From: a virus
Length of the DNA stretch: 43,467 bases
Virus record (IMG/VR): IMGVR_UViG_3300020202_000121
Coordinates: 1 to 43,467 of that record
Direction: 5' to 3' (one strand)
Below, piece by piece: positions 1 through 43,467 of the stretch. The notes beneath the pieces were generated by a model. It did no database searches and was not told where the DNA came from. It saw only the letters and a program-made list of their open reading frames with translations. Within the stretch, counting starts at the first letter, position 1. Each line of letters begins with the position of its first letter. A program made the position numbers and the translations under genes.

Positions 1-128
1 GGGCGTTCCGTAGCTGCTCTGCATACAACTCCGCTTTGACACCAACTATCAACTGACCTGATTTCATCCGATGGATATTTCGCTGAATGATTGCGATGTC
101 CTGGTCACGTTGCCGCTGCGCCGTGCGG
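1..128. repeat. Direct repeat A, copy 1 (identical to 42394-42521)
   Basis: By eye these 128 bases are identical to 42394-42521. The match then breaks at base 129, with about ten more matching bases after one mismatch. The repeat covers the 3' part of a small minus-strand gene family. With repeat B it marks the right flank of two alternative cassettes, which suggests that the window ends overlap on a circular molecule. Confidence 0.95.
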
Positions 129-286
129 TGGAGGGCGTCGGCTAGTAGCTTGGTCAGGTGAGCGACGCAGTAATCACACAGGACGCCTTCATCCTGAGAC
201 TTTTGGTCGCAGCCACAGACGATGCTCCAGAGCGCACTGTGCTGGAGTTTCTGCGCGAGCTGCTCCGCCTCTTCCCGCGCCGTCAT
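1..286 (-). CDS. Partial small phage protein, paralog of the genes at 42368 and 1959
   Basis: A minus-strand reading frame starts at ATG 286-284, runs to the window edge with no stop, and gives about 95 residues. The start overlaps the stop of the upstream 42-aa gene (ATGA). The N-terminal half has a C-x-C ... C-x2-C pattern (CGC and CDYC), absent from the homologue at 42368-42655. From the LHRTAQRQRDQD segment onward the two are identical, because that part lies in repeat A. The gene is thus a shared C-terminal domain with an exchanged N-terminus. Function unknown; a metal-binding regulatory role is only a guess. Confidence 0.7.
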   Translation of the reverse strand, partial: MTAREEAEQLAQKLQHSALWSIVCGCDQKSQDEGVLCDYCVAHLTKLLADALHRTAQRQRDQDIAIIQRNIHRMKSGQLIVGVKAELYAEQLRNA

Positions 287-4341: not shown

Positions 4342-4844
4342 CCCTGGTGTCCGATCCCTTTGGTGAGTTCTGCCAGTTGTTTCATGCCGCTAGCGGATAG
4401 GCCCGCCAGCCGATGCGTGGTCTCCCGCTTCGTAAGCTGCTCGTAGCACTTGAGAAAATGCGCGCGCTCGATGGCAATCTCCTCGCTGTTGCAGAGCGTG
4501 ACCCATCCAATCGCGCGCACGGTTTGCTCGATACGCTCATGCGTAAACTTCGGGATGCCGTAGTAGCCGATCCGATGCACCTGCTCGATCACTTCAGCCC
4601 AGGCCTCGACAGCGAGCGGAGCATCGTCGGGACGTGCATAGTCGAGCAACGTGGCGACCAGGCCCGTCCCCGGAAATAGATCCTTGTGACACCGGCAGAA
4701 CATCAGCACGGCGCGCAAGAACGCCTGGTCATCGAGATCCCCGAGCAAGGCGCGCCACGCTTTGAGCGTATTTGTGTCTGGCTTCAGGTTCGGAAACGAC
4801 GCCAGGAGTAGCGCCATGCCTTTGTCGAATGCGTCGGCGGTCAT
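4338..4844 (-). CDS. Putative helicase loader, 168 aa
   Basis: The N-terminal half (FPNLKPDTNTLKAW, LLGDLDDQAFLRAV, LFPGTGLVATLLDYARP) resembles the helical N-domain of phage helicase loaders or inhibitors such as SPP1 G39P. Gene order supports this: it directly follows, and overlaps by four bases, the initiator-like gene. It probably delivers a host or phage replicative helicase to the origin. No helicase gene is seen in the window, so the host DnaB is the likely partner. Confidence 0.6.
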   Translation of the reverse strand: MTADAFDKGMALLLASFPNLKPDTNTLKAWRALLGDLDDQAFLRAVLMFCRCHKDLFPGTGLVATLLDYARPDDAPLAVEAWAEVIEQVHRIGYYGIPKFTHERIEQTVRAIGWVTLCNSEEIAIERAHFLKCYEQLTKRETTHRLAGLSASGMKQLAELTKGIGHQG

Positions 4845-5602
4845 GCCCGTCCTTCCTCACGCCGAAGCTGGTGCAATGCCTGTAAACCTGGTGAGCCGAC
4901 CAGCGCCGGCTCAGCCTCGTCTTCCCATCGCTTGCCGTTCAACCACGTCGAAGCGTGCGGGATGTACTGGCCGCCATCCTTGAGCCACGCTGCCGAGGTC
5001 TTGGCCCGCTCTAGCGACGCAAGGATCGCTGCTTGGAGCTGCTCGCTCGGCTGTAGCTTTCGCCATGCCCGTCTCGCCGCTTCTTTGGCCTTTTTCACCG
5101 GGTAGGTGTGCCAAAACTGTGTAAACCCCGCCTCCGCGCGCTCGCGCGCGCGTGGATCTGTGTCTGTAACTGAATCTGTAACTGAATATGAAACTGATAC
5201 TGAAACTGGTGGGGTATTTTCCTGGGATTCCTTGTGGTTCCCGGTATTTCCCGGTAATTCCGCGATGTTGGTCGGTGGCTCGGGGTACTTACGGTGCAGC
5301 CGTGGATCGATCCGTTGAAACTTGCCCCAATTGGTGAACACCGCATAAGTCTTCCCGTCTTGGTCCCAGATCTGGAGCATGCCGTGTGCTTGGTACTCTC
5401 GAATCCACCTGGTAATGTCGGCCGGCTTCACGTCATCACGCAGCGGCCACAGTCGCCCTTTCAACGCCTTCGCGTTCACCTGTAAGACGCCAAAGCTGTC
5501 GGCTGCCAGGATGAAACGCGGGAACGCATCTTGCGCCTTTGGCGTACAGCGGGCGACCGATTCGCTGACGCAGAATTCCTCGTGCATAAGTCGTGTCGGC
5601 AT
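4841..5602 (-). CDS. Phage replication initiator-like protein, 253 aa
   Basis: Residues 1-105 form a winged-helix-like DNA-binding region (VSESVARCTPKAQDAF, LKGRLWPL, MLQIWDQDGKTYAVFTNW). Residues 130-155 are a low-complexity Ser/Val/Thr linker (VSVSVSYSVTDSVTD). Residues 156-240 are the conserved C-terminal domain found in many phage O-like or DnaD-like proteins (FTQFWHTYPVKKAKEAARRAW, YIPHASTWLNGKRWEDE). The linker-coding DNA consists of tandem 12-bp repeats, so the gene may contain the origin, as in lambda O. It overlaps the helicase-loader-like gene by ATGA. Confidence 0.75.
   Translation of the reverse strand: MPTRLMHEEFCVSESVARCTPKAQDAFPRFILAADSFGVLQVNAKALKGRLWPLRDDVKPADITRWIREYQAHGMLQIWDQDGKTYAVFTNWGKFQRIDPRLHRKYPEPPTNIAELPGNTGNHKESQENTPPVSVSVSYSVTDSVTDTDPRARERAEAGFTQFWHTYPVKKAKEAARRAWRKLQPSEQLQAAILASLERAKTSAAWLKDGGQYIPHASTWLNGKRWEDEAEPALVGSPGLQALHQLRREEGRA
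5165..5212. repeat. Four tandem 12-bp repeats, candidate iterons/replication origin
   Basis: Consecutive units are TGTAACTGAATC, TGTAACTGAATA, TGAAACTGATAC and TGAAACTGGTGG. They form an AT-richer island inside the GC-rich initiator gene and encode its Ser/Thr/Val linker. Downstream lie further repeats of the type GGTATTTCC and GGTAATTCC (about 5240-5265). Iterons inside the initiator gene are the lambda-O arrangement. A purely protein-level repeat is the alternative. Confidence 0.55.
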
Positions 5603-6640: not shown

Positions 6641-7268
6641 ACAACCCCCTCCCGTTGACCGTCGCCACAATCGAGAGAAACAAACCCGGCAGCCGCTTAT
6701 CGTTCACCGGCACCACGTCGGGCTTGTTCGCGCCATCCGACATGTACACGAGATACGATTCCGCCCCTTTGTAGCGCGGGTAGTGGCTGGCGAGCATCGG
6801 CGTGTAGGCGCCCCCGACCTGGAGATGGTGCCAGCGCTCCTTCGCGCCAAACTTCTTCTCGATCACGCACGGCGTACCACGCAAAAAGCCCGGCACGTCT
6901 GGCGTGCCAGCGTAGAGATACGTCGGATGAAAGCATGGCCGTTCCATGAGGTCCAAGTCCGGCACGAAGTCATACTCCCGCTTGAACTGCCGCCAGAGCT
7001 CAACCGCCGCGACGAGCTTTGGGTCGAGCGTGTCCATATCCAGGTCGCCCAGGTCATCCAAGGCCGTGGCCTCATGCTTATAGCGTCCGATCGTGGCCGC
7101 GTCGCCGTTGCCGTTCCACAGACGGCAGTAGCCCGCGTCTTTCAGGTACTGCGTGGTCGATTTCAGCGGCATGGAGTCCAGGTGGTACTCGTGGCTGAGC
7201 GGGTTATAGTGCAAGACCCGGTCGCCATACGGCACGTCCAGGACTTCGACGCCATGCAAGGTGGTCAT
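6618..7268 (-). CDS. PD-(D/E)XK exonuclease, recombination (YqaJ/Cas4-like)
   Basis: Catalytic signature: GRYKH with H65, GTPD with D124, VIEKK with E137 and K139, then QVGGAY with Q150. That is the core of the PD-(D/E)XK exonucleases that resect phage DNA ends. It lies between the annealing-type protein (upstream, 4-base overlap) and the coiled-coil protein, the usual order of a phage recombination operon. It probably makes 3' single strands for annealing. Length (216 aa) fits the family. Confidence 0.8.
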   Translation of the reverse strand: MTTLHGVEVLDVPYGDRVLHYNPLSHEYHLDSMPLKSTTQYLKDAGYCRLWNGNGDAATIGRYKHEATALDDLGDLDMDTLDPKLVAAVELWRQFKREYDFVPDLDLMERPCFHPTYLYAGTPDVPGFLRGTPCVIEKKFGAKERWHHLQVGGAYTPMLASHYPRYKGAESYLVYMSDGANKPDVVPVNDKRLPGLFLSIVATVNGRGLYGPNGRA

Positions 7269-8014
7269 CGAGTGAGCGTCGTCACGGCCTCATAGCACGC
7301 TTCACACATCGCCGCCTTTTGCTTCGGGCTGTAGTAGATCGTGTTCCCCGCCTTAATCATCTCGTTGCAGCCGCCCGAGCATTTGGACTCAAACTTCGAG
7401 GTCATCTTGCGCCAGTCGTCCCCGTTAGCCGGCGCGGGAGCCTGTGACTTCCGCTGCGGGGCTTGCATCACCGGCTTCGCTGGCGTTTCGGCACTCTCAC
7501 TCACCGCCGCTTCCGGCAAGTCCTCGACATCCTGCGTGAAGATGTCGCTCGCGGCTGTGCCATTCAGGACCGCCGCTACCAAGGCGCGCTTCGCAGCCAT
7601 CTTCTCGACCGTGTTCCGCACGTCCTCTAAGTTGGGACGCGCCTCATTCCTCACGTAGGCGTATTTGGTTTCCTTGGACGAGCAGCAGCCGACCCCCTCC
7701 GCGATGATGTGGCCGGTCAGGAGCGACTTGAGGGCGCACTTGATCTCGTAGCGAAAGTGACCATTATCCAAGTCGGTCGGCGTCACCTCGTAGAGCGGCG
7801 CCAGCCGGAACATGAACGCGAGCTTTTCAGCCCCCGCTTTCAAGAGCGTCGGCTTCGGGCCGCAGCCAGGAATCAGGCCGTAGTGGGTGCCGTCCTGCAT
7901 GACGGTCTTCATCAGTTCTTGGATGGCCGCCACCTGCGCGACGACCTCGCGGGGTGACATCGGGAGGAGTTCGGTACTGCCCGTCTGCACTTCGGCGAGC
8001 GCCTGATTCGTCAT
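7265..8014 (-). CDS. Phage recombination/ssDNA-annealing-type protein with zinc finger, 249 aa
   Basis: Residues 35-165 match a conserved phage family (THYGLIPGCGPKPTLLKAGAEKL, FRLAPLYEV, GVGCCSSKETKYAYVRN, VEKMAAKRALVAAVLN, SDIFTQDVEDLPE) found beside phage exonucleases. A Pro/Ala linker follows. The last 45 residues carry C-x3-C ... C-x2-C (KCSGGC, MCEACYE), a zinc finger of the kind seen on ssDNA-binding proteins. I infer strand annealing with the neighbouring exonuclease. The family assignment is from context and not from a named profile. Confidence 0.65.
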   Translation of the reverse strand: MTNQALAEVQTGSTELLPMSPREVVAQVAAIQELMKTVMQDGTHYGLIPGCGPKPTLLKAGAEKLAFMFRLAPLYEVTPTDLDNGHFRYEIKCALKSLLTGHIIAEGVGCCSSKETKYAYVRNEARPNLEDVRNTVEKMAAKRALVAAVLNGTAASDIFTQDVEDLPEAAVSESAETPAKPVMQAPQRKSQAPAPANGDDWRKMTSKFESKCSGGCNEMIKAGNTIYYSPKQKAAMCEACYEAVTTLTR

Positions 8015-9737: not shown

Positions 9738-9834
9738 TCTGCGGACTACGTTACACTAGACCACTACAGTTTGTCAAGGTCTTTTTTCAAATATTCCTAT
9801 GCGGTGTATCAGCGACGGTGATAGAATCGCCAGC
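9738..9834. promoter_or_regulatory. Divergent lysogeny-switch control region
   Basis: Leftward promoter: TTGACA (9777-9772, minus) and TGTAAC (9755-9750) with a 16-base spacer. For the rightward repressor, TTGTCA at 9771-9776 on the plus strand is a possible -35 facing an AT-rich TATTCC/CCTATG region, so the two -35 boxes would overlap. An inverted repeat AGACC (9758-9762) / GGTCT (9778-9782) brackets this overlap, a natural operator position for CI or Cro. Confidence 0.55.
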
Positions 9835-10539
9835 ATGACATTCGGAGAGTATTTACGATCCCTCCGCATAGCCCGTGAAGTTGAAATGCTAGAGCTTGGG
9901 CGCGCCCTTGGCCTACAGTCTGGCAGCTACATCGGGAATGTAGAAAGCGGCCGCACCAAGCCCCCTACCCTCGAACGGTGTAAGCAGATTGCCGATGCGC
10001 TCCGGCTCACCACCCAAGAGCGCGAACAGCTCTTCAAGCTCGCGGCCCAGGAGCGCACACCGGACGAGCTCAAGCACTTCATCCGAAGCAAGCACTTCGA
10101 GGTTCACGAGCCGAGCGGCACGTATGGCACGAAGAAGCTGTACCTACTCGGCGAGGTGCCAGCCGGCCCGATCAAGCCGACGGCTGACTACGTCGAAGGC
10201 TTCATTAATATCGACGCCAACCTGGTCGGCAATAAAGACTGCTTCGCCCTGCGGGTCAAAGGCGACTGCCTTAAGGACAAGCAAATCTCCAGCGGCGATA
10301 TTGTAATCGTCGCCCGTGGCGTCCACCTGGAGAACGGCAACATTGCCGTCGTGCGAATCCATGAAGGCCCTGAAGAGAATTGCACCATGAAGATCTTTCG
10401 GAAGCGTGGTGACGACGTGTGGCTGATGCCCGCGAGCAGCGATGACAAGGACCAGATGCCGATCCCGGTGAAGAAGGATAGCGGGAAGCAGGTTGAGATC
10501 ATCGGCAAGGTGATCTGGGCGATTAAGAGTGTGGGATGA
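9835..10539 (+). CDS. CI/LexA-like repressor, S24 peptidase with Cys in place of Ser, 234 aa
   Basis: I prefer ATG 9835 (MTFGEYLR) to 9799, because the HTH begins there. Residues 4-60 are an XRE HTH. The S24 domain has the cleavage pair A110-G111 (EVPAGP) and the lysine K186 (CTMKIF). The nucleophile motif, normally GDSM, reads KGDCL, so residue 145 is Cys. The protein should maintain lysogeny and block the leftward early promoter. Self-cleavage may be slow, thiol-based or lost. The stop overlaps the integrase start (ATGA), so both are co-expressed. Confidence 0.85.
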   Translation: MTFGEYLRSLRIAREVEMLELGRALGLQSGSYIGNVESGRTKPPTLERCKQIADALRLTTQEREQLFKLAAQERTPDELKHFIRSKHFEVHEPSGTYGTKKLYLLGEVPAGPIKPTADYVEGFINIDANLVGNKDCFALRVKGDCLKDKQISSGDIVIVARGVHLENGNIAVVRIHEGPEENCTMKIFRKRGDDVWLMPASSDDKDQMPIPVKKDSGKQVEIIGKVIWAIKSVG

Positions 10540-11606
10540 AGCTCGTTCGGCGTGGCAAGAAAGGCATCTGGCACGCCTATATCTACCGCCCGAACCGCCC
10601 GCCGCTCCGTCGCAGCCTCAAGACCATCGATAAGCGTGTTGCTGAATACCTCGCCGGACAGCTCGTCCGCGATGTCCGCACGAACCAGCTCCCGACCGCT
10701 CTCCGCGATTACCCGCTCCAGGACGCGATAGATCGTTATCTCGCCGACTGCGCCAGCCGCCTGCGGCCGCTCCACGTCAAGAAACGGCGCGACCGGTTGC
10801 AGCGCCTCGTGGACGCCTTACACGTCACGACCTTGCGCGGCCTGACCACCGAACGCCTCCGGCAGGTCATGCAGCAGCTTGCGGATACGCGCAAGTGGGA
10901 ACCGCGCACGTATAACCACTACCGGAACGATCTGCATGCGTTCCTGAACTGGTGCCGACATCAGCAGTGGCTGATGGAGAACCCGGTTCAGGCAATCGGT
11001 ACGCGGAAAGTTCCGAAGAACCCGGTGCGATATCTGGCCGATGAGGACATCAGCCGGTGCCTGGCGGCCTTTCATGGGCGATGGCTTGAGCGGGCGGTGG
11101 CCTTAGCGATCTATGCGGGCTTACGGCGGAGTGAGATCGCGCGCCTGGACTGGCAGGATCTCGACTTTGAGGCAAAGACGATCATGGTCGAGAACAAGCC
11201 AGAGGGGTTGACCAAGTCAGGCAAATTCCGCGTGGTGCCGATGTCAGAAGGCTTAGCGGAGCTGTTGCGGCCACATCGCAAACCGACTGGCCGCGTCGTT
11301 GGTCGGGTGACGCAGCTTACGACTCCGCTCTGGAAAGCGCGCGCGAAAGCGAAGCTGCCCCACTGGTGGAATTGGCTCGCCTTCCGGCACACCTTTGGGA
11401 CGCACTGCGCGCTACGCGGGGTGCCGCTCGTGAAGCTCGCGCAGTGGATGGGCCATCACGATCCGTCAGTCACCAACCGCTACTACATTGGCCGGCAGAT
11501 CAGCTATGACGCCGACATTGAACGATTCAGCCCGCGACTCGTGCACAATTTAGTACACAAGTCTGCGGGCCTCGTCGAGAAAAATGGTGGGGACGAGAGG
11601 ATTTGA
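10536..11606 (+). CDS. Tyrosine integrase, 356 aa
   Basis: Catalyses phage integration at a tRNA gene. The N-terminal part has an arm-binding-like segment and the SAM-like core-binding domain (about 60-155). The catalytic domain has R197 (GLRRSE), K227/K230 (TKSGKF), R284 (FRHTF), H307 (MGHHDP) and tyrosine 316 or 317 (NRYY). The His of the usual H-x-x-R box is replaced by Leu281. The gene is coupled to the CI-like repressor by ATGA. Its last codons and stop lie inside the attP core. Confidence 0.9.
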   Translation: MKLVRRGKKGIWHAYIYRPNRPPLRRSLKTIDKRVAEYLAGQLVRDVRTNQLPTALRDYPLQDAIDRYLADCASRLRPLHVKKRRDRLQRLVDALHVTTLRGLTTERLRQVMQQLADTRKWEPRTYNHYRNDLHAFLNWCRHQQWLMENPVQAIGTRKVPKNPVRYLADEDISRCLAAFHGRWLERAVALAIYAGLRRSEIARLDWQDLDFEAKTIMVENKPEGLTKSGKFRVVPMSEGLAELLRPHRKPTGRVVGRVTQLTTPLWKARAKAKLPHWWNWLAFRHTFGTHCALRGVPLVKLAQWMGHHDPSVTNRYYIGRQISYDADIERFSPRLVHNLVHKSAGLVEKNGGDERI

Positions 11607-30220: not shown

Positions 30221-30312
30221 TCCCAAGCGTCCGCGTCGTTGCCAAACAGGAACAGACCCACGACATAGCCCACCAGCCACAGAAGGAATATCGCGGAGAT
30301 CAGGAACTTCAT
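30217..30312 (-). CDS. 31-aa membrane peptide between two glycosyltransferase genes
   Basis: The ATG overlaps the stop of the upstream glycosyltransferase and its TGA overlaps the next start. One hydrophobic helix (FLISAIFLLWLVGYVVGLFLF) with acidic end (GNDADAWE). A small membrane anchor or partner of the flanking enzymes is possible. Coupling on both sides supports a real gene despite its size. Confidence 0.6.
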   Translation of the reverse strand: MKFLISAIFLLWLVGYVVGLFLFGNDADAWE

Positions 30313-31505
30313 GCCGGGATCTCCGGCGTCGCGTGGGTCAGGTGGCCGTTGCCATTGACGGCTTGAGCGACAGCCGGTCGGATCGCCGGCGCCGGGCGCT
30401 CCCCATCCAGCACCTGCGTATAGACCCGTTCGAGGTCCGGCAACCAGCGTTCGAGCGCAAAGTCCTTGCGACGCTTCACGACCTGCTCGCGGCACCGACG
30501 TTGCTCACCCCAGCGAGCTTTCAGCTCGTCGAGCGAATCGACTTTGATCCCCATTCCGGTGTCCTTGATGAAGCGCCAGGTTTCATCCGCGTGCATACAG
30601 ACGACGGGCATTGAGGCGCCCCAATACTCAAAGAGCTTGTTCGGGAGCGCGTGCTTCCACTCGGTATAGGGCTTGAGGTTGCCGACCAAGCCCCAATCAT
30701 GTCCGCCGATCGTTTTCAGCATCGTGTCGTAGGGCAGCGGTTCATTGACGTGGCACCACTGGCCGTAGGCGGCACGCACCTTGGCGTCCTTGCGGCTGGT
30801 GTAAATGAAGAACGGAATGCCCGCCTTCGCGCAGGACTCTGCCATCGGCAGGTAGTTGCAGTAGTTGAAGAAGTCCCACTGCCGATCAAGCTGTTCGGCC
30901 AAGTCGATGCGGCCCTCGTAGCACAGGCCCGAAATGTACTTGAACACGTCAAACCGCTGCATCTGGCGCGGCAGAGCCGACGGCACCACACAATGCGGAT
31001 GACGCAGCGCGTACTCGCTGCCGACGATGCGCTGCATGGGCGCACAGGGATAGACGAGGCCATCGGCTAGCTGCAGGTTGTTGCGCTCGTCCGTCGAGTG
31101 CCGGAAGACGGCCGGGTGCTTGGCTTTGGCGACTTCGGCTTCGGTTCGGCGGAGCAACATGCTGTCGTGCACGTCGAGCACAACCTTCGCCTTTGGCAGC
31201 GTTTCCTTGATCGCCGTCACAAACCACGACGGCTCGTTATGCGCGTGAAAGAGGTCCGCATCCGCATGCGCGGCGATCGACGCCCGCATTTGGTTGGCGT
31301 TCTGGTACACCTGCACCGTCTGATAGACTTCCGAGAACTGACTGATCTTGTTGACGATCAGGTGGACGTCGTAGCCCGCATTGATGAGCACGATCGCGGT
31401 CTTATGCACCCGCATGCAGCCGTGATTCGAAATCATCACGACTTTCCGCGGGCGCGGACGAGCCGGCCCCCCCGGAGTGGTGGAGTATGACCGACTCGTC
31501 CGCAT
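30309..31505 (-). CDS. GT4-like glycosyltransferase, 398 aa
   Basis: The N-terminal Rossmann start after a disordered lead is VVMISNHGCMRVHKTAIVL; then LFHAHNEPSWFVTAI and VVLDVHDSMLLRR, typical of GT4 acceptor domains. The C-terminal domain has ALPNKLFEYWGASMPVVC, the donor-site loop. Ends with a disordered tail (PAPAIRPAVAQAVNG). It directly follows the decoration-protein gene in transcription order, so it is expressed with the capsid genes. Confidence 0.8.
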   Translation of the reverse strand: MRTSRSYSTTPGGPARPRPRKVVMISNHGCMRVHKTAIVLINAGYDVHLIVNKISQFSEVYQTVQVYQNANQMRASIAAHADADLFHAHNEPSWFVTAIKETLPKAKVVLDVHDSMLLRRTEAEVAKAKHPAVFRHSTDERNNLQLADGLVYPCAPMQRIVGSEYALRHPHCVVPSALPRQMQRFDVFKYISGLCYEGRIDLAEQLDRQWDFFNYCNYLPMAESCAKAGIPFFIYTSRKDAKVRAAYGQWCHVNEPLPYDTMLKTIGGHDWGLVGNLKPYTEWKHALPNKLFEYWGASMPVVCMHADETWRFIKDTGMGIKVDSLDELKARWGEQRRCREQVVKRRKDFALERWLPDLERVYTQVLDGERPAPAIRPAVAQAVNGNGHLTHATPEIPA

Positions 31506-31999: not shown

Positions 32000-32956
32000 T
32001 TACGCGCTGGTGACTTTGACGATCCGCTCGATGCCCTTGTTCACCGAGTTCAGGTCGTCGTTCGTCAAATCCCACATCTTTTTCCAGTTCATGATCGCGT
32101 ACCAGCCAACCTTCTTGGATCGACCAAGGTCCGTCGGCGGGTCACGACGCACTTCTTCGAGGAGCGCGATCGCTTCCATAACCGCTTCCTCACCGAAGAA
32201 GAACCCTTCCCCGTAGATCGAGCCACTCCCGACGGTGTCGGACAGCACCCCGCCATACTGGTCGACCACGAAGCGGACGTTGTAATACTGACCCACCTCG
32301 TTGTTGTGCATGTACTCGGGCTTGGTGTACTGCGCCACGCCAGAGACGACATCATAGATGCCGCGTCGCGTATTCACCGACACGATGGCTCGGTAGTTGC
32401 CATCGCTGAACTTCGGAATCCACCGCTTCTCCATGAAGTCGACGACATCGCGGACCGACTTGTCCGACATATTCGCCGTCGCCGTGATGGTGGCTGTCCC
32501 ATTCGAGGTGAACACCGTGGTCGCCGTGTTGGTGCAGACGGCCACGTATTTCGCCGTGTCAAACTGCGCTGACACGAGCGAGTCGATCACTTCGAGCTGG
32601 TCCGACTTGAGCATCTTGGAAGCGATGTCGGACGGGTCAAACTCCGCCAGCGTCTCCAGCTTGTCGGTCCAGGGTACGGAGTTCCCAAGTTCCGTCATCA
32701 CGACGGAATCTTTCACGATCTTGAAGCGGGCTTCCGGCACGGTGGCTGTTTCAACGAGGGTGCCGCCCTTGGTGTCGAGGCGCAGCACTTTGTCGAAGAA
32801 CACCGTGTCGCCCTTCTTCTTGCCCGGATCTTCCTTAATGTCACAGAACTGCCGAAACACCCATTTCGACTCGTTCTGCATCCGCAGGCTCTTGGAGAGC
32901 GAGTTGTTGGTAAGGTGCCCTCCAAGGCTATTCGTCACCCATACTTGGCCTGGCAT
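32000..32956 (-). CDS. Major capsid protein, N4-gp56-like, 318 aa
   Basis: HK97-fold capsid of the N4 gp56 type: a start with SLSKSLRMQNESKWVFRQFCD, then KKKGDTVFFDKVL, MTELGNSVPWTDKLETLAEFD, a central helix (VRDVVDFMEKRWIPKF), IVSVNTRRGIYDV and a C-terminal FFFGEEAVMEAIALLEEVR ... MNWKKMWDLT. The length fits. It follows the scaffold-like gene and precedes a decoration-like gene. No separate protease is seen. Confidence 0.8.
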   Translation of the reverse strand: MPGQVWVTNSLGGHLTNNSLSKSLRMQNESKWVFRQFCDIKEDPGKKKGDTVFFDKVLRLDTKGGTLVETATVPEARFKIVKDSVVMTELGNSVPWTDKLETLAEFDPSDIASKMLKSDQLEVIDSLVSAQFDTAKYVAVCTNTATTVFTSNGTATITATANMSDKSVRDVVDFMEKRWIPKFSDGNYRAIVSVNTRRGIYDVVSGVAQYTKPEYMHNNEVGQYYNVRFVVDQYGGVLSDTVGSGSIYGEGFFFGEEAVMEAIALLEEVRRDPPTDLGRSKKVGWYAIMNWKKMWDLTNDDLNSVNKGIERIVKVTSA

Positions 32957-33992: not shown

Positions 33993-34162
33993 TACAGGCC
34001 CCGCTTCATCCGGCGGGCGTAATGGCGCGCCATATAGGCGGCCGTGTCACGCTCTTCACGGGTCAAGTCCTTGGGCGCCGAGATCACAATCTGCTTGCCC
34101 TTCGCTGAGAGGATCGACTTCTTCGGCTTCGGCATGGCTGGTTTCTTCGGTTTCGGTGCCAT
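33992..34162 (-). CDS. 56-aa very basic protein with Pro-Lys repeats
   Basis: Coupled by TAATG to the portal stop and to the next gene. Starts MAPKPKKPAMPKPKKS, then a helix with RHYARRMKRGL. Such a charge suggests nucleic-acid or portal/scaffold binding. The gene is short and could be missed by automatic callers. Function unknown. Confidence 0.65.
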   Translation of the reverse strand: MAPKPKKPAMPKPKKSILSAKGKQIVISAPKDLTREERDTAAYMARHYARRMKRGL

Positions 34163-36078
34163 TAGAACGCTCCGGCGGTCGCTGGCTGTGGTGTCGGCGC
34201 AGGACGTGGCGGCATGCCAGTCGGCACCGGTGGCCCCTGCTGCGCAGCCTGCTGCTGCGTCAGCATTTGCTTGACCTCGTCCTTCGTCCGCAAAAACTCG
34301 TCGTAGTCCTCGATCTCGCTCAACTGCCAGAGCTTCTTGTAGAGGACATCGACCTTCGTCAGCGCCGTCAGCGTCGGATTCGAAAGCGCGGCCTGCAGGC
34401 CTTCTTTGAGCTTCTGCAACTGCTCTAGACGGCCAGTAAACTGCGTGATCCCGACGGCCTTAAAGTTGAACGCCATCTCGCCCTTCCTGCGGAGATCCGC
34501 CAAGACGAGCTTCGGCACTTGGGTCGTCCCCACCACCTTCGCGCGCACGACCGGCTCGCCCGCATTGTCCAATTCCTCGACTTGCTCAATCTGGTCGACG
34601 GTCCGCATGCCGATCAGCTTGTTTACCTTGTCCTGGCTGAACAGCTTTTCGTTGAGGATGATTTTGACGATGAGCGTAATGAGCGGCACGACGTAGTCAT
34701 GCTCAATGAAGCGGCCCTGGTCGAGGAACCGTTGGTCGACCATTTGCAGCTTCAGCTCGTACTGCCCTAGCGTCTCTTCGTTCGTGCCGGACCCAGACAG
34801 ATTCGGTGAGCCTTGGGCTTGGCGGGTAATGCCGCTTGCGTCTTGGTCGAGCTGGTCAATCAGTGTCAGACCGCGGATGACATCGGTAATGGCCGACACC
34901 GGCTGCCGCTGGATCTTCACGCCGTTCACATCGCGCATCTTCCAGACGGCTAGCGGTTTGTACTTGATCGAGGTTGAGTCTTTGACCTTGTTATCGTCGA
35001 GCACGATGATGTCCATCGCGCTGATCTTGGCCGAATCGAAACCCAGATTGACCATCGAGTTCGAGAGGTCTTGGAAGCCCCGGCCGTTTTCGAGGTAGCC
35101 GCGGCCATAGGCGTCGTACTTGCGGGGTTTCGTCCGGCACCACACCCAGGGATGACATCCGTAGGGGTGCGCCACGCGGCGGATCAGATGCGTTTTGTTG
35201 ATGAGGGCGCACAACTCCCACTGATACTCGCCTTTGTCGTTCGGCACACAGACCCAGCACTCATGAAAGTCGAGCTGCTTATAGCGAGACGGAATGGTGA
35301 CGTCGGTCGTGCCGTCGATACCCTTCACGACCGTCATCGACTCTTGGGCGTCCGTCGGCGTATTGCCAAGCGCGTAGACCTCATGCAGCTTCTTCGCTTC
35401 CTCGGCCGCCATCTGGAGGAATGCATCAATATCGGCCCGATGCTTGGCATAGAGGCCATTCCCGCGAGCCTGCTGGATCAGATACGCCAGATCCTTGCGG
35501 TACACGTCGATAATGAACCGGGCGCGGTCGAGGCGGTGTCCACACTCCGGGTCGATCAGCACGTTGTACGGCGAGCGCCAGGTAAATTCGAGATAGCCGT
35601 CAGGCCGCATGAGGACTTTGAGGAACGACGTACCCGGACTGCCAACGGCTTCCGCTACGACGAAGTCGTTAGCTTCGCTGAAGCGACCGAGGTTCAAGAG
35701 CACGTCGACTAAGTTCGTCAAATGCTGGGCCTGATCGTGGTCGCTCGCTTCATGGCCCTGAATGTCGAAGAACCGGCCCTTGCCGAAGACCATCTTTTTG
35801 AGGTAGCTGACGGCGATCTCTTCTTTCTTGGCCTGGAGCGGAATGAAGATTTTCGTCTGCCAGTCGTCCTTCTTCTCCCACTCCTCCGGCGGGACGCACC
35901 GGATCTGCTTCTCCACCTCTTCCCAGGTGTCGCGGAAGCGGTCGCGGTATTCTTCGCCTGAGCGGATGCACTCTTGGAGATGGACGACGAGTTCCGCATC
36001 GGAGAGGGCGCCGCTCGGCACCTTCTCGGCCTTGGGCGCTGCGTCGGTCGTGGGGGCCTTGTAGGACGTGTCAGCCAT
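34162..36078 (-). CDS. Portal protein, 638 aa
   Basis: The dodecameric gate for DNA in podoviruses. Seen: an acidic disordered start, FRDTWEEVEKQIRCVPPEEWEKKDDWQTKIFIPLQ, DVLLNLGRFSEANDF, FTWRSPYNVLIDPECGHRLDRA, AYGRGYLENGRGFQDLSNSMVNLGFDSAKIS and a long C-terminal helix with Gln-rich tail (VKQMLTQQQAAQQG). These are the wing, stem and barrel elements of long podovirus portals. It is followed by head genes. A Pro-rich C-terminus (PPRPAPTPQP) is disordered. Confidence 0.85.
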   Translation of the reverse strand: MADTSYKAPTTDAAPKAEKVPSGALSDAELVVHLQECIRSGEEYRDRFRDTWEEVEKQIRCVPPEEWEKKDDWQTKIFIPLQAKKEEIAVSYLKKMVFGKGRFFDIQGHEASDHDQAQHLTNLVDVLLNLGRFSEANDFVVAEAVGSPGTSFLKVLMRPDGYLEFTWRSPYNVLIDPECGHRLDRARFIIDVYRKDLAYLIQQARGNGLYAKHRADIDAFLQMAAEEAKKLHEVYALGNTPTDAQESMTVVKGIDGTTDVTIPSRYKQLDFHECWVCVPNDKGEYQWELCALINKTHLIRRVAHPYGCHPWVWCRTKPRKYDAYGRGYLENGRGFQDLSNSMVNLGFDSAKISAMDIIVLDDNKVKDSTSIKYKPLAVWKMRDVNGVKIQRQPVSAITDVIRGLTLIDQLDQDASGITRQAQGSPNLSGSGTNEETLGQYELKLQMVDQRFLDQGRFIEHDYVVPLITLIVKIILNEKLFSQDKVNKLIGMRTVDQIEQVEELDNAGEPVVRAKVVGTTQVPKLVLADLRRKGEMAFNFKAVGITQFTGRLEQLQKLKEGLQAALSNPTLTALTKVDVLYKKLWQLSEIEDYDEFLRTKDEVKQMLTQQQAAQQGPPVPTGMPPRPAPTPQPATAGAF

Positions 36079-36412
36079 GACGTTTCCGTGTCCAGAGGAT
36101 GAGAGAAGAGAGGCCTAGGCGTCCGACGTGGAACGCCACGAGCCAACTGTTGTATGCGACGGCCCGCTCGATGACGAGGCGAAACGGACCCAGTTCCCAG
36201 CGCCGCGTCGCCAACGACAGCGGCTGTGGGTCGGCCGGCGTAATCAGCTTCACCGCCTCGTGCACCGCCTCGCGGCAGTCCCACGATTCATGGATCACAA
36301 TCTGGTGGCTCCAGTCCACGCGATAGCGACATTGACACGGCTGCCCGCCCGCCGGCGACCATTCCAAAAGGTGCGGCCGTGCATCGTTAATCGGGAAGAC
36401 GTGCTGCCACAT
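36071..36412 (-). CDS. 113-aa hypothetical protein
   Basis: Starts MWQHVFPINDARPHLL and has CQC ... WDCREAVHEAV with several His, then hydrophobic aromatic stretches (PFRLVIERAVAYNSWLVAFHVGRLGL). Possibly one membrane-associated helix at the end. Overlaps the portal gene by eight bases. No family recognised. Confidence 0.5.
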   Translation of the reverse strand: MWQHVFPINDARPHLLEWSPAGGQPCQCRYRVDWSHQIVIHESWDCREAVHEAVKLITPADPQPLSLATRRWELGPFRLVIERAVAYNSWLVAFHVGRLGLSSLILWTRKRHG

Positions 36413-36603
36413 TACTTGTCCGAGACCTTGTGGATGCAGTCGCAGTCGAGGCGCGGCTGGTGATCGCCGAGGTGTCCATCGACGTGCTGCCCGATAAACG
36501 GCACGCCGCGCTCGTTATCGGCCGCACACCGGCAACAGGAGTTCTTATAGCCGCTGAGCTGGTGCCAGCAATGCGAGGGGCAATTCGTTTTCGGCTTTAC
36601 CAT
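36412..36603 (-). CDS. 63-aa Cys/His-rich protein
   Basis: I choose ATG 36603 (GGAG about eight bases upstream). Pattern CPSHCWH ... CCRC ... H-x3-H ... CDC-x-H gives at least two metal sites. It is the only zinc-type micro-gene inside the packaging operon together with the next one. Function unknown. Confidence 0.6.
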   Translation of the reverse strand: MVKPKTNCPSHCWHQLSGYKNSCCRCAADNERGVPFIGQHVDGHLGDHQPRLDCDCIHKVSDK

Positions 36604-36818
36604 CGACCGACTCCGGTAATGCGCGCGACATAGGCTTGGAGTTCGGCGCACAGCGCACAGCCGTCGGCATAGCCCACGTGATGTGCGGTGCCTTGCTCAC
36701 AACAGTTGTGGCGCGGCATGGGCTGGCGATCGAATGGCGAGCCGATCATGCCAGGTGTGATGACCGAGACGACATGCCCGGCTGAGTCCGGCTTGAGTGG
36801 CATGTACTGTGTCACCAT
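36597..36818 (-). CDS. 73-aa hypothetical protein with HNCC...CALC motif
   Basis: Overlaps the large terminase end by seven bases. A Pro/Gly-rich start (VSVITPGMIGSPF) is followed by a metal-like HNCCEQGTAHHVGYADGCALC block and a short helix. It resembles the small zinc proteins elsewhere in the genome. Function unknown. Confidence 0.6.
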   Translation of the reverse strand: MVTQYMPLKPDSAGHVVSVITPGMIGSPFDRQPMPRHNCCEQGTAHHVGYADGCALCAELQAYVARITGVGRW

Positions 36819-38188
36819 CCGCCGCGCCCTCCGCCGGCCAAGTTTCCGAAGTCAACGCTGACGGAGACACCGCCCATCGTCTTCCGCTCGGCGTAGTCGA
36901 CGCAGGACAGCATCGTGGCGATCAGCCCGTCGTCATGGAAGCCGTCTTGAGCGCCCATGCCCTTCCGCTTGGCTTCGTCGGTGTACACGAAGGTCGGCAT
37001 CTCGGCGACGACATCGGAGGATCGCAACTTGATGGCGCCGTCCCGGAGGAGCGTCAAGAATTGGTAGACGAGGATCGGCTTCGTGGCGCTCGTCGTCTTC
37101 CAGCCCAGCGTTTCCTGCTCGACGTAGTCCTCGCGGTCGAAGACCTTGCGGGTGTAGATGTGCTCGTAGTGCTCTTTGAGGCGGCTCAAGAACGCTAGGC
37201 CAATCCCATTGATCTCCGGCACGACCAGCGCGTCGTTGTAGTACCGCGCCATCGGCACAATCTTTTGGGCCAAGAGGTCCGGTGGCACCTGCCCCTTCCA
37301 GAAGGCCGCTTGCTCGCCACAGTCGAGGTCCATAACTGACATCGCCGAGGCGTCTTGGCCGATCCCTTCCGACACGTCGACGCCGACTTGGTACACGTGG
37401 CCCTGATGAAGATCGGAGTACACCTGCACGCCCTCTGAGACGCGCAACGGCGCGCGGACAAATCGGCGCTGTACGGTGATGTACTCCACCGGGATCACGG
37501 CCCGGTCAGACAAAAGGCTTTCGTCCCAAACGCCTTCGACGAACTGCCGACGCCATTGGAGCGGCTGCTTGAGCATGTCGGCCAGGTAGTCTTCGGGCAG
37601 GTTGGCTTGGTTATCGAGCATCGAGAACTCGATCAGTTCGCGGTTCGGGTCACGTTCCTGCTTGAACCGCTTATAGCCCCAGAAGAGGAGCGGGTTACAG
37701 TCCATCAAGAGCTGCCGAGACGGGACGTGCTGCAGGTTGAGTCGGGCGAGGAGCGCCATGACAACGGACTCTTTGATCTCCTCGACCTGGCTGATATACG
37801 CAAAGCCCAATGTCATCCCTCGGATTTCAGCCTCAGACACCGTGTCCAAGTGGCGAAACAGGACTTCCGTGCCGTTGTCGAGCGTCAATTCGCCGGTGCT
37901 CTCTTTCCAGTGCTTGATCCACTCCGGCGGCAAGAGCGCGAAGAAATCCTTTTGCACGGTGTCCCGGAGCTCGGGGTAGGTCAGCCGCCCGATCAGCCCC
38001 CGGTTGTTCGGCACGGGCAAGTGCTGCGTGATGAGTTTCACGATCATCGACAGCGTCTTGCCGGAGCGAAAGCCCCCGGACGCGAGCAACTCTTTAGCTT
38101 TGCTCGCTAAGCAACGAGACTGCTTGTCGCTCAACGCGATTTCGCGGCTCGTCTGCCCGTTCCGTAACACGCGAAACGTCGTGCTCAT
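36812..38188 (-). CDS. Terminase large subunit, 458 aa
   Basis: ATPase/nuclease motor of DNA packaging. Walker A GGFRSGKT (residues 38-45); Walker B region FAYISQVEEI (129-138), with the variant IxQxEE core; coupling MDCNP near 162. RuvC-like nuclease: D271 (GVDVSEG), E325 (VVPEINGIG) and D419/D420 (HDDGLIA). Head-full packaging would explain the circular permutation seen at the window ends. The start lies 95 bases inside the small-subunit gene. Confidence 0.9.
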   Translation of the reverse strand: MSTTFRVLRNGQTSREIALSDKQSRCLASKAKELLASGGFRSGKTLSMIVKLITQHLPVPNNRGLIGRLTYPELRDTVQKDFFALLPPEWIKHWKESTGELTLDNGTEVLFRHLDTVSEAEIRGMTLGFAYISQVEEIKESVVMALLARLNLQHVPSRQLLMDCNPLLFWGYKRFKQERDPNRELIEFSMLDNQANLPEDYLADMLKQPLQWRRQFVEGVWDESLLSDRAVIPVEYITVQRRFVRAPLRVSEGVQVYSDLHQGHVYQVGVDVSEGIGQDASAMSVMDLDCGEQAAFWKGQVPPDLLAQKIVPMARYYNDALVVPEINGIGLAFLSRLKEHYEHIYTRKVFDREDYVEQETLGWKTTSATKPILVYQFLTLLRDGAIKLRSSDVVAEMPTFVYTDEAKRKGMGAQDGFHDDGLIATMLSCVDYAERKTMGGVSVSVDFGNLAGGGRGGW

Positions 38189-39181: not shown

Positions 39182-39955
39182 TCACACATCGAACGCCACC
39201 TTTTGCGCCAGGACGTGCACGTTGTTCCAGCTTGGGAACCGTTGACTGAAGTTTTGGGCCTTGTAGACGATCTCAAAGCGGCCCTGCCGTAGGTCGGGAG
39301 ACGCCAACATTAGCAGACGCTCCAGTAGGCTGCCGGATAGAAACTGGCGGTTCGATTCGAGATCCCAATGGCCGAAGTCGGCGAACTTCCCCATGCGGAG
39401 AATGTCGGTGTCCGGCGTGACGATGAAGAGCATGCCGGTCGGCTTGAGGAGTTGATAGCATTTCTTGAGTGCCGCTGTCGGGTCTGTAAGACACTGTAAT
39501 ACATCTCCCAGCCAGAGGCAGTCGAACTGCTGGGTGCCGAAGTCGAAGGACTCGAAATCGCCCATCTGGTAGTCGTTCGATGGAATCAGGTCAAGGCCCT
39601 GCACGATCCATCCACGACGTTCCATGCCCTGTAACATGTGTGGCGTACACGGTCCGACGTCGAGGAACCGCCGCCCGTAGGTCGCTTCCTCGATGATCGT
39701 GGCGTAGTTCCTGATGTACCAGCCATACCGCTCCGCGATCTCTTTCCGGTCCGCATACTGCTTCCGGTATTCTTCGGTGAAGACCTTCGATCGGTCCGGC
39801 TGGTAGAGGTTGAAGATAAGGTCGCACGCGCAGTGGAGCCAGCACTTCGTGAGGTCGTCGCCTGCCCCTTTGATCGCATAGCGATGGAAGACGAGGCGTC
39901 GGCATAGGGGGCAGCGGACTTCTGATAGTGTGGCTGGCACAGGTATCTCTGACAT
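39182..39955 (-). CDS. SAM methyltransferase with N-terminal zinc ribbon, 257 aa
   Basis: Residues 12-50 form a zinc ribbon (C15-x2-C18 ... C-x3-C-x-C: VRCPLCRR, CWLHCACD). The fold then has motif I FLDVGPCTPHML (residues about 95-106), QFDCLWLGDVLQCLTDP and LKPTGMLFIVTPDTD. Such ribbon-methyltransferases occur in surface-polysaccharide and tailoring clusters. It starts three bases after the GT9 stop, with AGGGG before the ATG. Target unknown. Confidence 0.8.
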   Translation of the reverse strand: MSEIPVPATLSEVRCPLCRRLVFHRYAIKGAGDDLTKCWLHCACDLIFNLYQPDRSKVFTEEYRKQYADRKEIAERYGWYIRNYATIIEEATYGRRFLDVGPCTPHMLQGMERRGWIVQGLDLIPSNDYQMGDFESFDFGTQQFDCLWLGDVLQCLTDPTAALKKCYQLLKPTGMLFIVTPDTDILRMGKFADFGHWDLESNRQFLSGSLLERLLMLASPDLRQGRFEIVYKAQNFSQRFPSWNNVHVLAQKVAFDV

Positions 39956-39958
39956 CCC

Positions 39959-41023
39959 CTACACACCGCCCAGGCTGTTCGGCTGCACAGATCGCACTTC
40001 ATTGCACATCAACGCCTCCTCAACCCTCGCCAGCACCCGCTCCGCTGGCAACCCCTTCGACATGCACAACGCCGCCCGGCTGTCATCCTCATCGAGATTG
40101 CAGGTCAGTGAACTCTGGTAGTGGATCTGATGACAGGGCGAGCACCCGACGCCTTCAGCCTGCGCGCAGTAGTCATTCGCAAAGTGCTTGCAGATTTCCT
40201 CGTGCGTCGTATGCCCGAGGAGCCCGACCTTCGGATTGTCCGCGCACCCGGCCGCATGGAGGAGACCCGTATCTGGGCTGACCACCACGGCGGCCGCCTG
40301 ACACGCCAAGGCCGACTGCCGCATGGTCCACTTGCCGGACTTGCAGATGACCCGGCCACGAAAGGGCTTGTTCTTGAACGGGAATTCGAGGATCTGACAC
40401 ATCTCATCGCCCACGGTAACAACTAGGACGTCGTCGTGGCGGGCTAACAGAAGTCGGATGACCTCATGTACATGGGGATAACATTTGTTAAGGGCTGATC
40501 CCGAGAGGCCCCAGAGGATCACGCGCTTGCCTTCCCACGGCTGGAACTCGTAGGCGAGCGCGGTACGCTCTTGGTCGGTGAAGAAGAGTTCGGGATGAAA
40601 ATACTTGGGATCTCCAAGCTGCATGGGCGTAAAAAAATCTTGCTCAAGCGCGTGCTGTGCAATCCTGAACGTCTCCTCGTAGTAATTCACATTGCGCCGC
40701 TCATGCTTCGGGTACTTATACCGCGGGCTATTCGGATGCAGCGCGATATTCACCTCGATCGACTCGCTCAGGCCGATATGCGTGTCGCACTCTTCCGCCT
40801 GCCGGACGGCCTCGAAGTACTGGTCAAGCTGGTCGCTCGGCACACTGTCTTTGACATGGAGGATCGTCTTCGCAAGATGCGGATTGTTGGCGAACATCGC
40901 CAAGCCCTGATCCGAGGTGAGCATCACGACTTCGTCACCGCGCGCATGGAGGTAGCGGATCAGTGGCGTGACGATGAGACAGTCACCAAAAGCACCCATG
41001 CGGGAGATGAGAATACGGCTCAT
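39959..41023 (-). CDS. GT9 (heptosyltransferase-like) glycosyltransferase, 354 aa
   Basis: N-terminal ILISRMGAFGDCLIVTPLIRYLHARG and TSDQGLAMF match the GT9 acceptor domain. The C-terminal domain has VILWGLSGSALNKCYPH, then VVVSPDTGLLHAAGCADNPKVGLLGHT, the family's donor-site signature. Two Cys near 310 (GCSPCHQ) recall LPS heptosyltransferases. Chemically it would add heptose or a related sugar to lipid A core or another acceptor. Phage-borne GT9 genes are uncommon. Confidence 0.85.
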   Translation of the reverse strand: MSRILISRMGAFGDCLIVTPLIRYLHARGDEVVMLTSDQGLAMFANNPHLAKTILHVKDSVPSDQLDQYFEAVRQAEECDTHIGLSESIEVNIALHPNSPRYKYPKHERRNVNYYEETFRIAQHALEQDFFTPMQLGDPKYFHPELFFTDQERTALAYEFQPWEGKRVILWGLSGSALNKCYPHVHEVIRLLLARHDDVLVVTVGDEMCQILEFPFKNKPFRGRVICKSGKWTMRQSALACQAAAVVVSPDTGLLHAAGCADNPKVGLLGHTTHEEICKHFANDYCAQAEGVGCSPCHQIHYQSSLTCNLDEDDSRAALCMSKGLPAERVLARVEEALMCNEVRSVQPNSLGGV

Positions 41024-41453: not shown

Positions 41454-41857
41454 CCCCGCCCCCGCTCCTTAGGTCGTGGGGTGCCACAGCGATCACAGAA
41501 TTTGGCCTTCTTTTGGACACGTACCTCATGCTCCTCATCGGCACGACGCCACGGTTGGTCCGCATAGCGACCGTCATAGACCCAGTGCACACACCACGTC
41601 GGCTCCGGCTCCGGCGTGAGGAGGGCCATGAGCTTATTGACCGCTTCGGTGATCGGTTTCGGCGAGTCACTACACCATCCGAGCACACAGTCATGGATAA
41701 TTTGGTGCACTTGCTCCCGCGTCACCCTCGGCTGCCATCGGCGGTGCCATTCAATGATCCGTTCGTCGATCCAGCCCTTTGGGTCTTGACCTTCAGCCGT
41801 ATAGCAGCGGAAGTCCCCGAGAATCTTCAGTAGCTCTGCCCGCTCCCCCTCCGCCAT
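41450..41857 (-). CDS. 135-aa protein with C-terminal zinc ribbon-like end
   Basis: An N-terminal helical part (RAELLKILGDF, VTREQVHQIIHDCVLGW) is followed by WCVHWVYDG and a C-terminal CDRCGTPRPKERGRG. Only one Cys pair is at the end, so the metal site would need partners such as C103 and H105. Coupled by ATGA. Function unknown. Confidence 0.6.
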   Translation of the reverse strand: MAEGERAELLKILGDFRCYTAEGQDPKGWIDERIIEWHRRWQPRVTREQVHQIIHDCVLGWCSDSPKPITEAVNKLMALLTPEPEPTWCVHWVYDGRYADQPWRRADEEHEVRVQKKAKFCDRCGTPRPKERGRG

Positions 41858-42240
41858 CAGGACTCCTTGACCAGGTGTGGGTGTTCGTAGATGTTGCCGA
41901 TGATCTCAATGGTGCTCGGATCGAAATAGCCAAGCTCTTGCCGATTCTCGACGTACCAGCAACCCAACCGTTCAAAGACCCTGGCAACGTCCTGAGTTCC
42001 AACAAATCGAATCCAATCTCCGTCGTAAATCTCGCGTCCCTGCCGGTCGAGGAGGCCGGTGAATTGCAAAGGGATCATCAGATCGCCGGCCAACGTACTG
42101 AGTCTCGTGCTGGTGCTACTCACGTTGATGAACCCGCGTCCGTCGGGAAGCAGCGTCAACTGGTCGGCGCCCATCTCCTCAGCCGAAAACATCTTGTTCA
42201 GCTTCGTATGCCACGCCCGGAACTTCATCGCTCGACTCAT
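41857..42240 (-). CDS. YopX-like protein, 127 aa
   Basis: YopX-family pattern: MKFRAWHTKLNKMFSAEEM, MIPLQFTGLLDRQGREIYDGDWIRF and the end IEIIGNIYEHPHLV. I take ATG 42240, with MKF (42228) as an alternative; GGGAGG lies upstream. The family is common in temperate phages of many hosts and has no established function. Coupled by ATGA to its upstream membrane-zinc gene. Confidence 0.8.
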   Translation of the reverse strand: MSRAMKFRAWHTKLNKMFSAEEMGADQLTLLPDGRGFINVSSTSTRLSTLAGDLMIPLQFTGLLDRQGREIYDGDWIRFVGTQDVARVFERLGCWYVENRQELGYFDPSTIEIIGNIYEHPHLVKES

Positions 42241-42371
42241 CCCGGCCACCTCCCACAGTGCCGACACCGCCGACGCGACCAGCATTGCCATAACGCCACA
42301 TGGTCCGCGAAGAAGACATAGCCCAGGAGGGCGGCGATTCCGGTGAAGCAGCCGAGGAGGAAGAGGGTCAT
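42237..42371 (-). CDS. 44-aa membrane peptide with terminal CRHCG
   Basis: A hydrophobic helix (LFLLGCFTGIAALLGYVFF) followed by a basic tail with CRHCG (RRRCRHCGRWPG). Start and stop overlap the neighbouring genes by ATGA and GGATGA. A one-pass membrane protein with a small cytoplasmic metal-binding tail is likely. Function unknown. Confidence 0.6.
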   Translation of the reverse strand: MTLFLLGCFTGIAALLGYVFFADHVALWQCWSRRRCRHCGRWPG

Positions 42372-42655
42372 GGCGAGGAGTCGGTGACGAGCGGGGCGTT
42401 CCGTAGCTGCTCTGCATACAACTCCGCTTTGACACCAACTATCAACTGACCTGATTTCATCCGATGGATATTTCGCTGAATGATTGCGATGTCCTGGTCA
42501 CGTTGCCGCTGCGCCGTGCGCTGGAGGGCGTTGGCAATCAGTTTCCTGACGGTGCCAATGTGATCGACTTGCCAATTGCCGCGTAGGTGATCGGCCAACT
42601 GGCACCAGAGTTCTAAGGCAGGATCCACGTTGCCCTGTTCCGACTTCGCCGTCAT
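42368..42655 (-). CDS. 95-aa member of the QRxQD paralog family
   Basis: I choose ATG 42655 (MTAKSEQGN) with GGGAGG upstream. A helical protein with LWCQLADHLRGNWQVDHIG, then LIANALQRTAQRQRDQD ... IHRMKSG ... APLVTD. Repeat A covers the part after LQRTAQ, which is identical to the partial gene at 1-286. Together with 1959-2279 this makes three family members. Function unknown. Confidence 0.75.
   Translation of the reverse strand: MTAKSEQGNVDPALELWCQLADHLRGNWQVDHIGTVRKLIANALQRTAQRQRDQDIAIIQRNIHRMKSGQLIVGVKAELYAEQLRNAPLVTDSSP
42394..42521. repeat. Direct repeat A, copy 2
   Basis: Identical by eye to 1-128. Beyond it the two copies diverge at one base, share about ten more bases, and then differ. 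The right border of the variable cassette on this copy is 42522. Confidence 0.95.
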
Positions 42656-42840
42656 CCGGGCCTCCCAGGATTCACGAGATACACCAGCCAATCGAGCGTC
42701 ACCTGATCGACGTAGGGATCAGTGGAGGTAACAGTCATCCGGGCCTCCGTTGAAGAGTGCGGGAGGAGCCAGGTACTATCCCGGCGCTTATCGCATGGCG
42801 AGAAGTAGCCTCGGACCCGCTCATGACGCTTCGCCTCCAT
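42652..42840 (-). CDS. 62-aa protein of the variable cassette
   Basis: ATG 42840 follows GGGAGG with a six-base gap. The N-terminal half is basic and has one Cys (CDKRRD), the C-terminal half is helical/aliphatic (VDQVTLDWLVYLVNPGRPG). An internal ATG after GGAGGCCCGG at 42739 could yield a 28-aa form. It overlaps its neighbours on both sides. Absent from the other cassette. Function unknown. Confidence 0.55.
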   Translation of the reverse strand: MEAKRHERVRGYFSPCDKRRDSTWLLPHSSTEARMTVTSTDPYVDQVTLDWLVYLVNPGRPG

Positions 42841-42994
42841 CGGGAGTCCTCCCAGGACAATTGTGTGGAGCGTTCTCTAGAGTCACACCTGGCAGATTTG
42901 TAGCGATGCTAAACGAGCAACACGGGCAAGCCCACGATGAGATATTGGATGGCTCTTTCGGTTTCCACCAGTCCGCTTTATCCTCGTCAAACAT
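42821..42994 (-). CDS. 57-aa Cys-rich protein of the variable cassette
   Basis: ATG 42994 follows GGGGGAAGGAG. The acidic aromatic start (MFDEDKADWWKPKEP) precedes CPCC (residues 23-26) and NC late in the sequence, so perhaps a small metal site. Only in this cassette version. No family recognised. Confidence 0.55.
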   Translation of the reverse strand: MFDEDKADWWKPKEPSNISSWACPCCSFSIATNLPGVTLENAPHNCPGRTPDGGEAS

Positions 42995-43015
42995 GTTGCT
43001 CCTTCCCCCGTCCGC

Positions 43016-43138
43016 TCATCTGGGCCTCCGCTCCTCTTCATTCGCAATCCAGAGACAGATTTCGCGCAGCACATGTGCTTGATAGGCCATGACGCCACCG
43101 AACACGATCCAGGTTGCTCCAAGCAAGATCATATCCAT
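43016..43138 (-). CDS. 40-aa membrane peptide of the variable cassette
   Basis: TGATG overlap with the zinc-ribbon gene sets the start (MDMILLGATW). One membrane helix (ILLGATWIVFGGVMAY) with a charged end (ANEEERRPR). It occurs only in this cassette version; the other has a plus-strand gene at about this place. Function unknown. Confidence 0.6.
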   Translation of the reverse strand: MDMILLGATWIVFGGVMAYQAHVLREICLWIANEEERRPR

Positions 43139-43278
43139 CAGGCGTTCTTCCTCCCCCGCTGGACGCGGCGACGGGAGCGACGTGGCGTGACATGGCACCG
43201 GTTACACTCCTGCCAGCCGTGTCCTCCGTACTCTGGTACGAATCGTCTGATAGTTCCCCCGCAGCGACAGCGGCTCAT
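43138..43278 (-). CDS. 46-aa zinc-ribbon protein with an MSRCRCG start
   Basis: C4/C6 and C25-x2-C28-H (ECNRCH) make a four-Cys ribbon, with a basic tail (RRSRRRVQRGRK). The MSRCRCG start and the tail match the protein at 1048-1200, but the middle is different. The two are thus exchanged versions of one gene. Start and stop overlap neighbours. Confidence 0.65.
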   Translation of the reverse strand: MSRCRCGGTIRRFVPEYGGHGWQECNRCHVTPRRSRRRVQRGRKNA

Positions 43279-43355
43279 CGCCCCATCATCATCAGCAGCC
43301 ACATCACGAGCATCCCGAAGAAGAATCCGTCGATGAAGTCACAGCGACCGCTCAT
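43275..43355 (-). CDS. 26-aa membrane peptide, alternative to 1197-1280
   Basis: Starts MSGRCDFIDG and has one hydrophobic helix rich in Met (FFFGMLVMWLLMMMG). It starts at the edge of repeat B, exactly where the other copy starts a different membrane peptide. Coupled by ATGA on both sides. Function unknown. Confidence 0.55.
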   Translation of the reverse strand: MSGRCDFIDGFFFGMLVMWLLMMMGR

Positions 43356-43467
43356 GCCGGGCCTCGGGTCATCGCCTTCAGGCGACCTTGGTAGAGCCGA
43401 TGGCCGCATGATCCGTACACACAGTGGCCCACCTGTTTCTGCGTCACCGCTTGATGGCACGTCGGAC
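43349..43467. repeat. Direct repeat B, copy 2 (runs to the window end)
   Basis: Identical by eye to 1274-1392 and cut by the end of the window. Taken with repeat A it means that walking past base 43467 continues with the sequence after base 1392. Confidence 0.95.
43352..43467 (-). CDS. Partial 74-aa zinc-ribbon gene (5' end outside the window)
   Basis: The last 38 codons of the gene fully seen at 1277-1501: from the CPTC knuckle through HCVYGSCGHRLYQG to the stop. The identity with the complete copy is total over the overlap. Its 5' part is missing only because the window stops. Confidence 0.7.
   Translation of the reverse strand, partial: PTCHQAVTQKQVGHCVYGSCGHRLYQGRLKAMTRGPA

Follow-up and report, generated by a model that had tools for sequence, protein, structure and literature searches.

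Two versions of one small-gene cassette at the ends of a temperate phage contig: a probable assembly of two strains of a single circular genome

Small-gene mosaicism in the early regions of temperate phages is known from the nin-type regions of lambdoid phages, and the boundary sequences of lambdoid phages have been proposed to act as short linkers. Complete phage contigs in IMG/VR can carry direct terminal repeats, in which the two ends of the record have a common sequence. In assemblies by metaSPAdes or MEGAHIT, variation within a population opens bubbles in the graph, and metagenome contigs broken at branch points normally bear end words of the final k (maxK) (PMC10914622), which in the JGI metaSPAdes pipeline is 127 (-k 33,55,77,99,127) (PMC11584781). 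The locus described here touches on all three systems. It occupies the two ends of an IMG/VR virus record of 43,467 bases, classed as 'linear', which was analysed over its full length (the window). We consider it highly probable (around 90%) that the two ends of this contig are two strains' versions of one small-gene stretch in a circular genome, strung together by the assembler, and that the contig does not contain a duplication.

Both ends of the window carry the same two flanks in the same order. The left flank, A, covers positions 1–127 and is identical to 42394–42520, with a mismatch at base 128; a second mismatch follows at 139, and similarity fades at about base 142. The right flank, B, covers 1274–1392 and is identical to 43349–43467, where its second copy is cut by the contig end after 119 bases. 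Exact repeats of 127 and 119 bases cannot arise by chance. Between the flanks lie version 1 of the cassette (V1, 128–1273, 1146 bases) and version 2 (V2, 42521–43348, 828 bases). The original prediction had recognised this arrangement and gave the right repeat exactly; its left repeat, reported as 1–128 = 42394–42521, is identical as claimed over 127 bases only, and the intervening DNA indeed differs, with the sizes of 1145 and 827 bases corrected by one each. Both flanks lie in coding sequence, as had been stated, the left one in a gene of 103 (V1) or 95 (V2) amino acids and the right one in a 74-aa gene. As in contigs with direct terminal repeats, the two record ends share sequence; in contrast to these, the shared words are out of register and each stands next to a different version, so that each repeat is internal on one side. 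A direct terminal repeat genome was put low for this reason, since the shared words do not lie in register at both extreme ends.

One line of evidence comes from a simulated assembly. A word (de Bruijn) graph was built from two circles, one with V1 (1–42393, 42,393 bp) and one with V2 (1274–43348, 42,075 bp), using word lengths k of 99, 119, 123, 127 and 141. At every k tried, its three edges met at a single fork and a single join. With k=127, a walk from V1 through the long common edge to V2 starts at window base 1, equals the window and overruns its end by 8 bases. The proposal that a circular genome of about 42.1–42.4 kb exists in two versions, and that the contig runs along both arms of the bubble, is supported by this graph, which reproduces the window within 8 bases. 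The exact 127-base start follows because a circular genome present in two versions forks at a k=127 word, and the right repeat of 119 bases is 8 short of the k=127 join word. The shortfall could stem from a base variant at the position equivalent to 1393 or from low read coverage where the V2 arm ends. Graphs at k=119 and k=123 were rejected, since they fit the right end (k=119) or the total length (k=123) and miss the start. The two repeats together amount to 246 bases, or 2 x 123, and the k=123 graph gives the exact total length with a 4-base shift, which counts against regarding the word length as settled. The earlier idea that a repeat reflects the assembly word length is therefore kept in modified form, in that 127 bases at the start are a better sign of it than 119 bases at the cut end. 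Like the bubbles described for metaSPAdes and MEGAHIT (PMC10914622), the window has an exact final-k start word that is repeated elsewhere and diverges at the next base, and the origin would in both cases lie in within-population variation; it differs from them in that both arms are contained in one contig, one at each end of the circle, with the right arm lacking its last 8 bases.

As a yardstick, both ends were inspected in 30 further contigs from IMG/VR, each of which has one gene in common with the phage. A terminal repeat of exactly 127 bases was present in five of them, others having 123, 114, 99 and so on. In two further cases (G008 and G022), 126 exact end bases are preceded by one or two mismatches to the contig's own start, meaning that these contigs start on one variant and end on another at the scale of single bases. 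Both (G008, ends L077/L078; G022, ends L103/L104) are probably complete circles with strain variants that were classed as linear. By analogy, we infer that the window would represent the same phenomenon with a variant of 1 kb.

Closing the circle also repairs the genes cut by the record ends. The 103-aa gene at the left end (MTAREEAEQ..., 5' part at 1–286, minus strand) is completed, in frame, only when base 1 is joined to 42393, with its stop at 42368 and a positive codon score for the ORF across the join. At the right end, the cut 74-aa gene is likewise restored in frame. The minus-strand genes run leftward from the repressor region to base 1 and, with the ends joined, continue through the cassette into the YopX-family gene and the packaging genes; this gene order is sensible on a circle, whereas on the linear record it is broken mid-operon. 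The phage is a temperate tailed phage, with a CI-like S24/HTH repressor (9799–10539, plus), a tyrosine integrase (10536–11606, plus; PF00589), a large terminase subunit (TerL; 36812–38188, minus) and a portal-like protein (34162–36078, minus). Its genome further encodes a replication initiation protein (4841–5602, minus), a major head protein (32000–32956, minus), an amidase and a CHAP protein, and, just downstream of the cassette, the YopX-family protein of 127 aa from the likely ATG (41857–42240, minus; PF09643, E=1e-13). We propose that the record is a slightly overlong contig of a temperate phage whose genome is circular, or circularly permuted, and of which two strains would be present in the sample, differing at one variable cassette between the early genes and the YopX and terminase genes. 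V1 would precede and V2 follow the 41.2 kb that the strains have in common, since the two versions are attached to one and the same fork and join, and the sizes of the two circles would be those of the single-strain genomes, each with one version.

The two versions are allelic, occupying a single locus with the same outer genes. Flanks excluded, they share collinear exact blocks adding up to 86 bases at a word length of 10, whereas 100 shuffles gave 8.6 bases on average and never more than 33, none of them reaching the observed value; examples of the blocks are 278–290/42647–42659, 407–422/42734–42749, 1071–1084/43161–43174 and 1180–1203/43258–43281. All small ORFs that had been listed for the two versions are present, and all except one lie on the minus strand. 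Next to the Cys-rich 74-aa gene (1277–1501, minus), which holds flank B, both versions have a membrane peptide (27 aa at 1197–1280 in V1, in ATGA overlap with the 74-aa gene; 26 aa at 43275–43355 in V2), followed by an MSRCRCG protein (50 aa at 1048–1200; 46 aa at 43138–43278, a predicted ribbon), the two MSRCRCG proteins having similar basic C-termini. At the far end, both versions have a protein beginning MTA..., which the original prediction overlooked although its gene contains the left repeat: the 103-aa protein in V1 and a 95-aa protein in V2 (42368–42655, minus), with identical C-terminal halves and different N-terminal halves that carry Cys pairs in V1 and none in V2. The exchange has its right border at the 74-aa gene's stop codon, where flank B begins, and its left border inside the 103/95-aa gene. 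In between, V1 has a 42-aa Cys-rich ORF with a GGAGG ribosome site (283–411, minus) and an 87-aa ORF on the plus strand (760–1023), and V2 has ORFs of 62 aa (42652–42840) and 57 aa (Cys-rich, 42821–42994) as well as a 40-aa membrane peptide (43016–43138), all on the minus strand. Codon usage like that of the large genes is clear for the 103/95-aa pair and the 27/26-aa membrane peptides and weak for the 87-aa ORF. The Cys-rich mini-ORFs score neutral or negative (negative for the 42-aa ORF) and are therefore not proven genes, and several of the mini-ORFs may not be genes. A plus-strand ORF in V2 (43073–43336) also encodes 87 aa; its codon score is strongly non-coding, and the match in length to the V1 gene is coincidental.

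As to the route of the swap, the two versions would have arisen when related phages exchanged the cassette by ordinary homologous recombination, crossing over in the conserved genes on either side, which appears to be the simplest explanation. Crossovers might also have occurred at short conserved start-site sequences. The ribosome-site/start motif GGAGGCCCGGATGA is found on the minus strand at mini-gene starts of both versions, with three exact copies (408–421 in V1, 42652–42665 and 42735–42748 in V2) and one with a single mismatch (43016–43029 in V2). Allowing up to two mismatches, the whole window contains six matches against 0.53 expected, four of them in the cassette, and GAGGCCCGGCATGAGC, a close form of the motif, lies at the right border of the exchange itself. 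By analogy to the lambdoid sequences, GGAGGCCCGGATGA could serve as a short recombination linker; alternatively, it may just be a good translation start that was copied along with the genes. The likeness to nin-type mosaicism comprises tiny ATGA-overlapping genes swapped as a block between conserved genes, several of which begin with copies of a short common ribosome-site/start sequence. In contrast to nin-type regions, the present cassette has no sequence relatives in the collections searched, its motif is specific to the locus and the linker role is putative.

A more dynamic picture is conceivable, in which the locus is actively shuffling, GGAGGCCCGGATGA links the modules and the 87-aa gene of V1 forms a miniature unit, mobile or invertible, between its inverted repeats, but we regard it as unlikely. 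The 87-aa gene is flanked by an 18-base inverted repeat (728–745, plus, and 1029–1046, minus; 17 of 18 positions complementary). The window contains no other such pair within 500 bases; one was matched in 1 of 300 shuffles of V1 and in none of 30 shuffles of the window, and the arms continue to pair outward with a bulge. The repeat may mark the limits of a small mobile or invertible element. Considered as a possible moron, the gene reads against its neighbours, but a scan of 1–1600 for promoters of the sigma-70-like type and for simple terminators detected neither.

A real tandem duplication would place both versions in one circular genome (A-V2-B, then A-V1-B), with the copies diverged or replaced and the repeated flanks causing the contig to break where B meets A. 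This arrangement yields the same word graph save for one extra junction edge, and the contig alone cannot tell the two apart. However, the B-to-A junction is absent from the record, in a simple tandem copy it would disrupt either the 74-aa or the 103-aa gene, and the exact 127-base start does not require a duplication. Flanks that are 100% identical around insides in which shared exact blocks cover only about 86 of 828 bases are, moreover, unlike a decaying duplication. We therefore consider this explanation very unlikely compared to two strains of one circle.

Still less probable is a programmed switch from V1 to V2 by inversion, a diversity-generating retroelement or site-specific exchange. 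In favour of such a mechanism are the tyrosine integrase of the phage and the 18-base inverted repeat on either side of the V1 87-aa gene, yet the two versions differ in sequence and are not inverted forms of each other, the differences extend over the whole 0.8–1.1 kb, beyond 728–1046, and a second recombinase was not recognised among the larger genes scanned. Terminal-redundancy heterozygotes are established for headful phages such as T4, and TerL has weak similarity to T4-like terminases, but a single linear molecule with unlike ends of this type, stemming from mixed infection, is the most improbable reading of all, since its ends would be permuted over the population, making one fixed boundary of exactly k length unexpected, and a rare molecule would not assemble from population short reads.

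With two strains of one circular genome as the preferred reading, the finding itself is ordinary phage mosaicism, namely strain variation in a stretch of small genes that an assembly artefact has exposed. It offers one clear allele pair of a mini-gene locus, apparently from one population. In practice, the record should be handled as one complete circle of about 42.1 or 42.4 kb that has a single variable locus, rather than as a linear piece of 43.5 kb, and its end genes should not be counted twice. One contig can hold two strain alleles and in this way be missed by completeness tests based on end repeats.

Relatives that could place the cassette in a wider context were sought in several ways. 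Megablast against phages returned no near relative, and exact 40- and 32-base flank words had no match in viral_contigs, so that no sibling contig with V1 or V2 was found there by this means, in collections from which very near records may be missing. Protein scans with TerL, the portal and the 87-, 74- and 95-aa proteins in viral_contigs, and with the portal and TerL in genome_contigs, gave no relatives either, and Pfam and PHROGs searches of the mini-ORFs yielded nothing usable. No tRNA or Rfam family was detected in the searches made. Distant relatives were obtained for one early gene only (7265–8014), at 54 loci that have few other genes in common with the phage and are of no use for comparing the cassette.

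Two further observations concern the packaging region. At 34162–38188 (minus), a portal that fits head-tail connector models stands beside a terminase with weak T4-type similarity; this pair occurs in a phage with integrase and repressor that has no close relative in the collections searched. In addition, a methyltransferase, a family-9 glycosyltransferase-like gene and a family-4-like glycosyltransferase are located among the packaging and structural genes (39182–41023 and 30309–31505, minus), where they may function in modification of the host surface or the virion.
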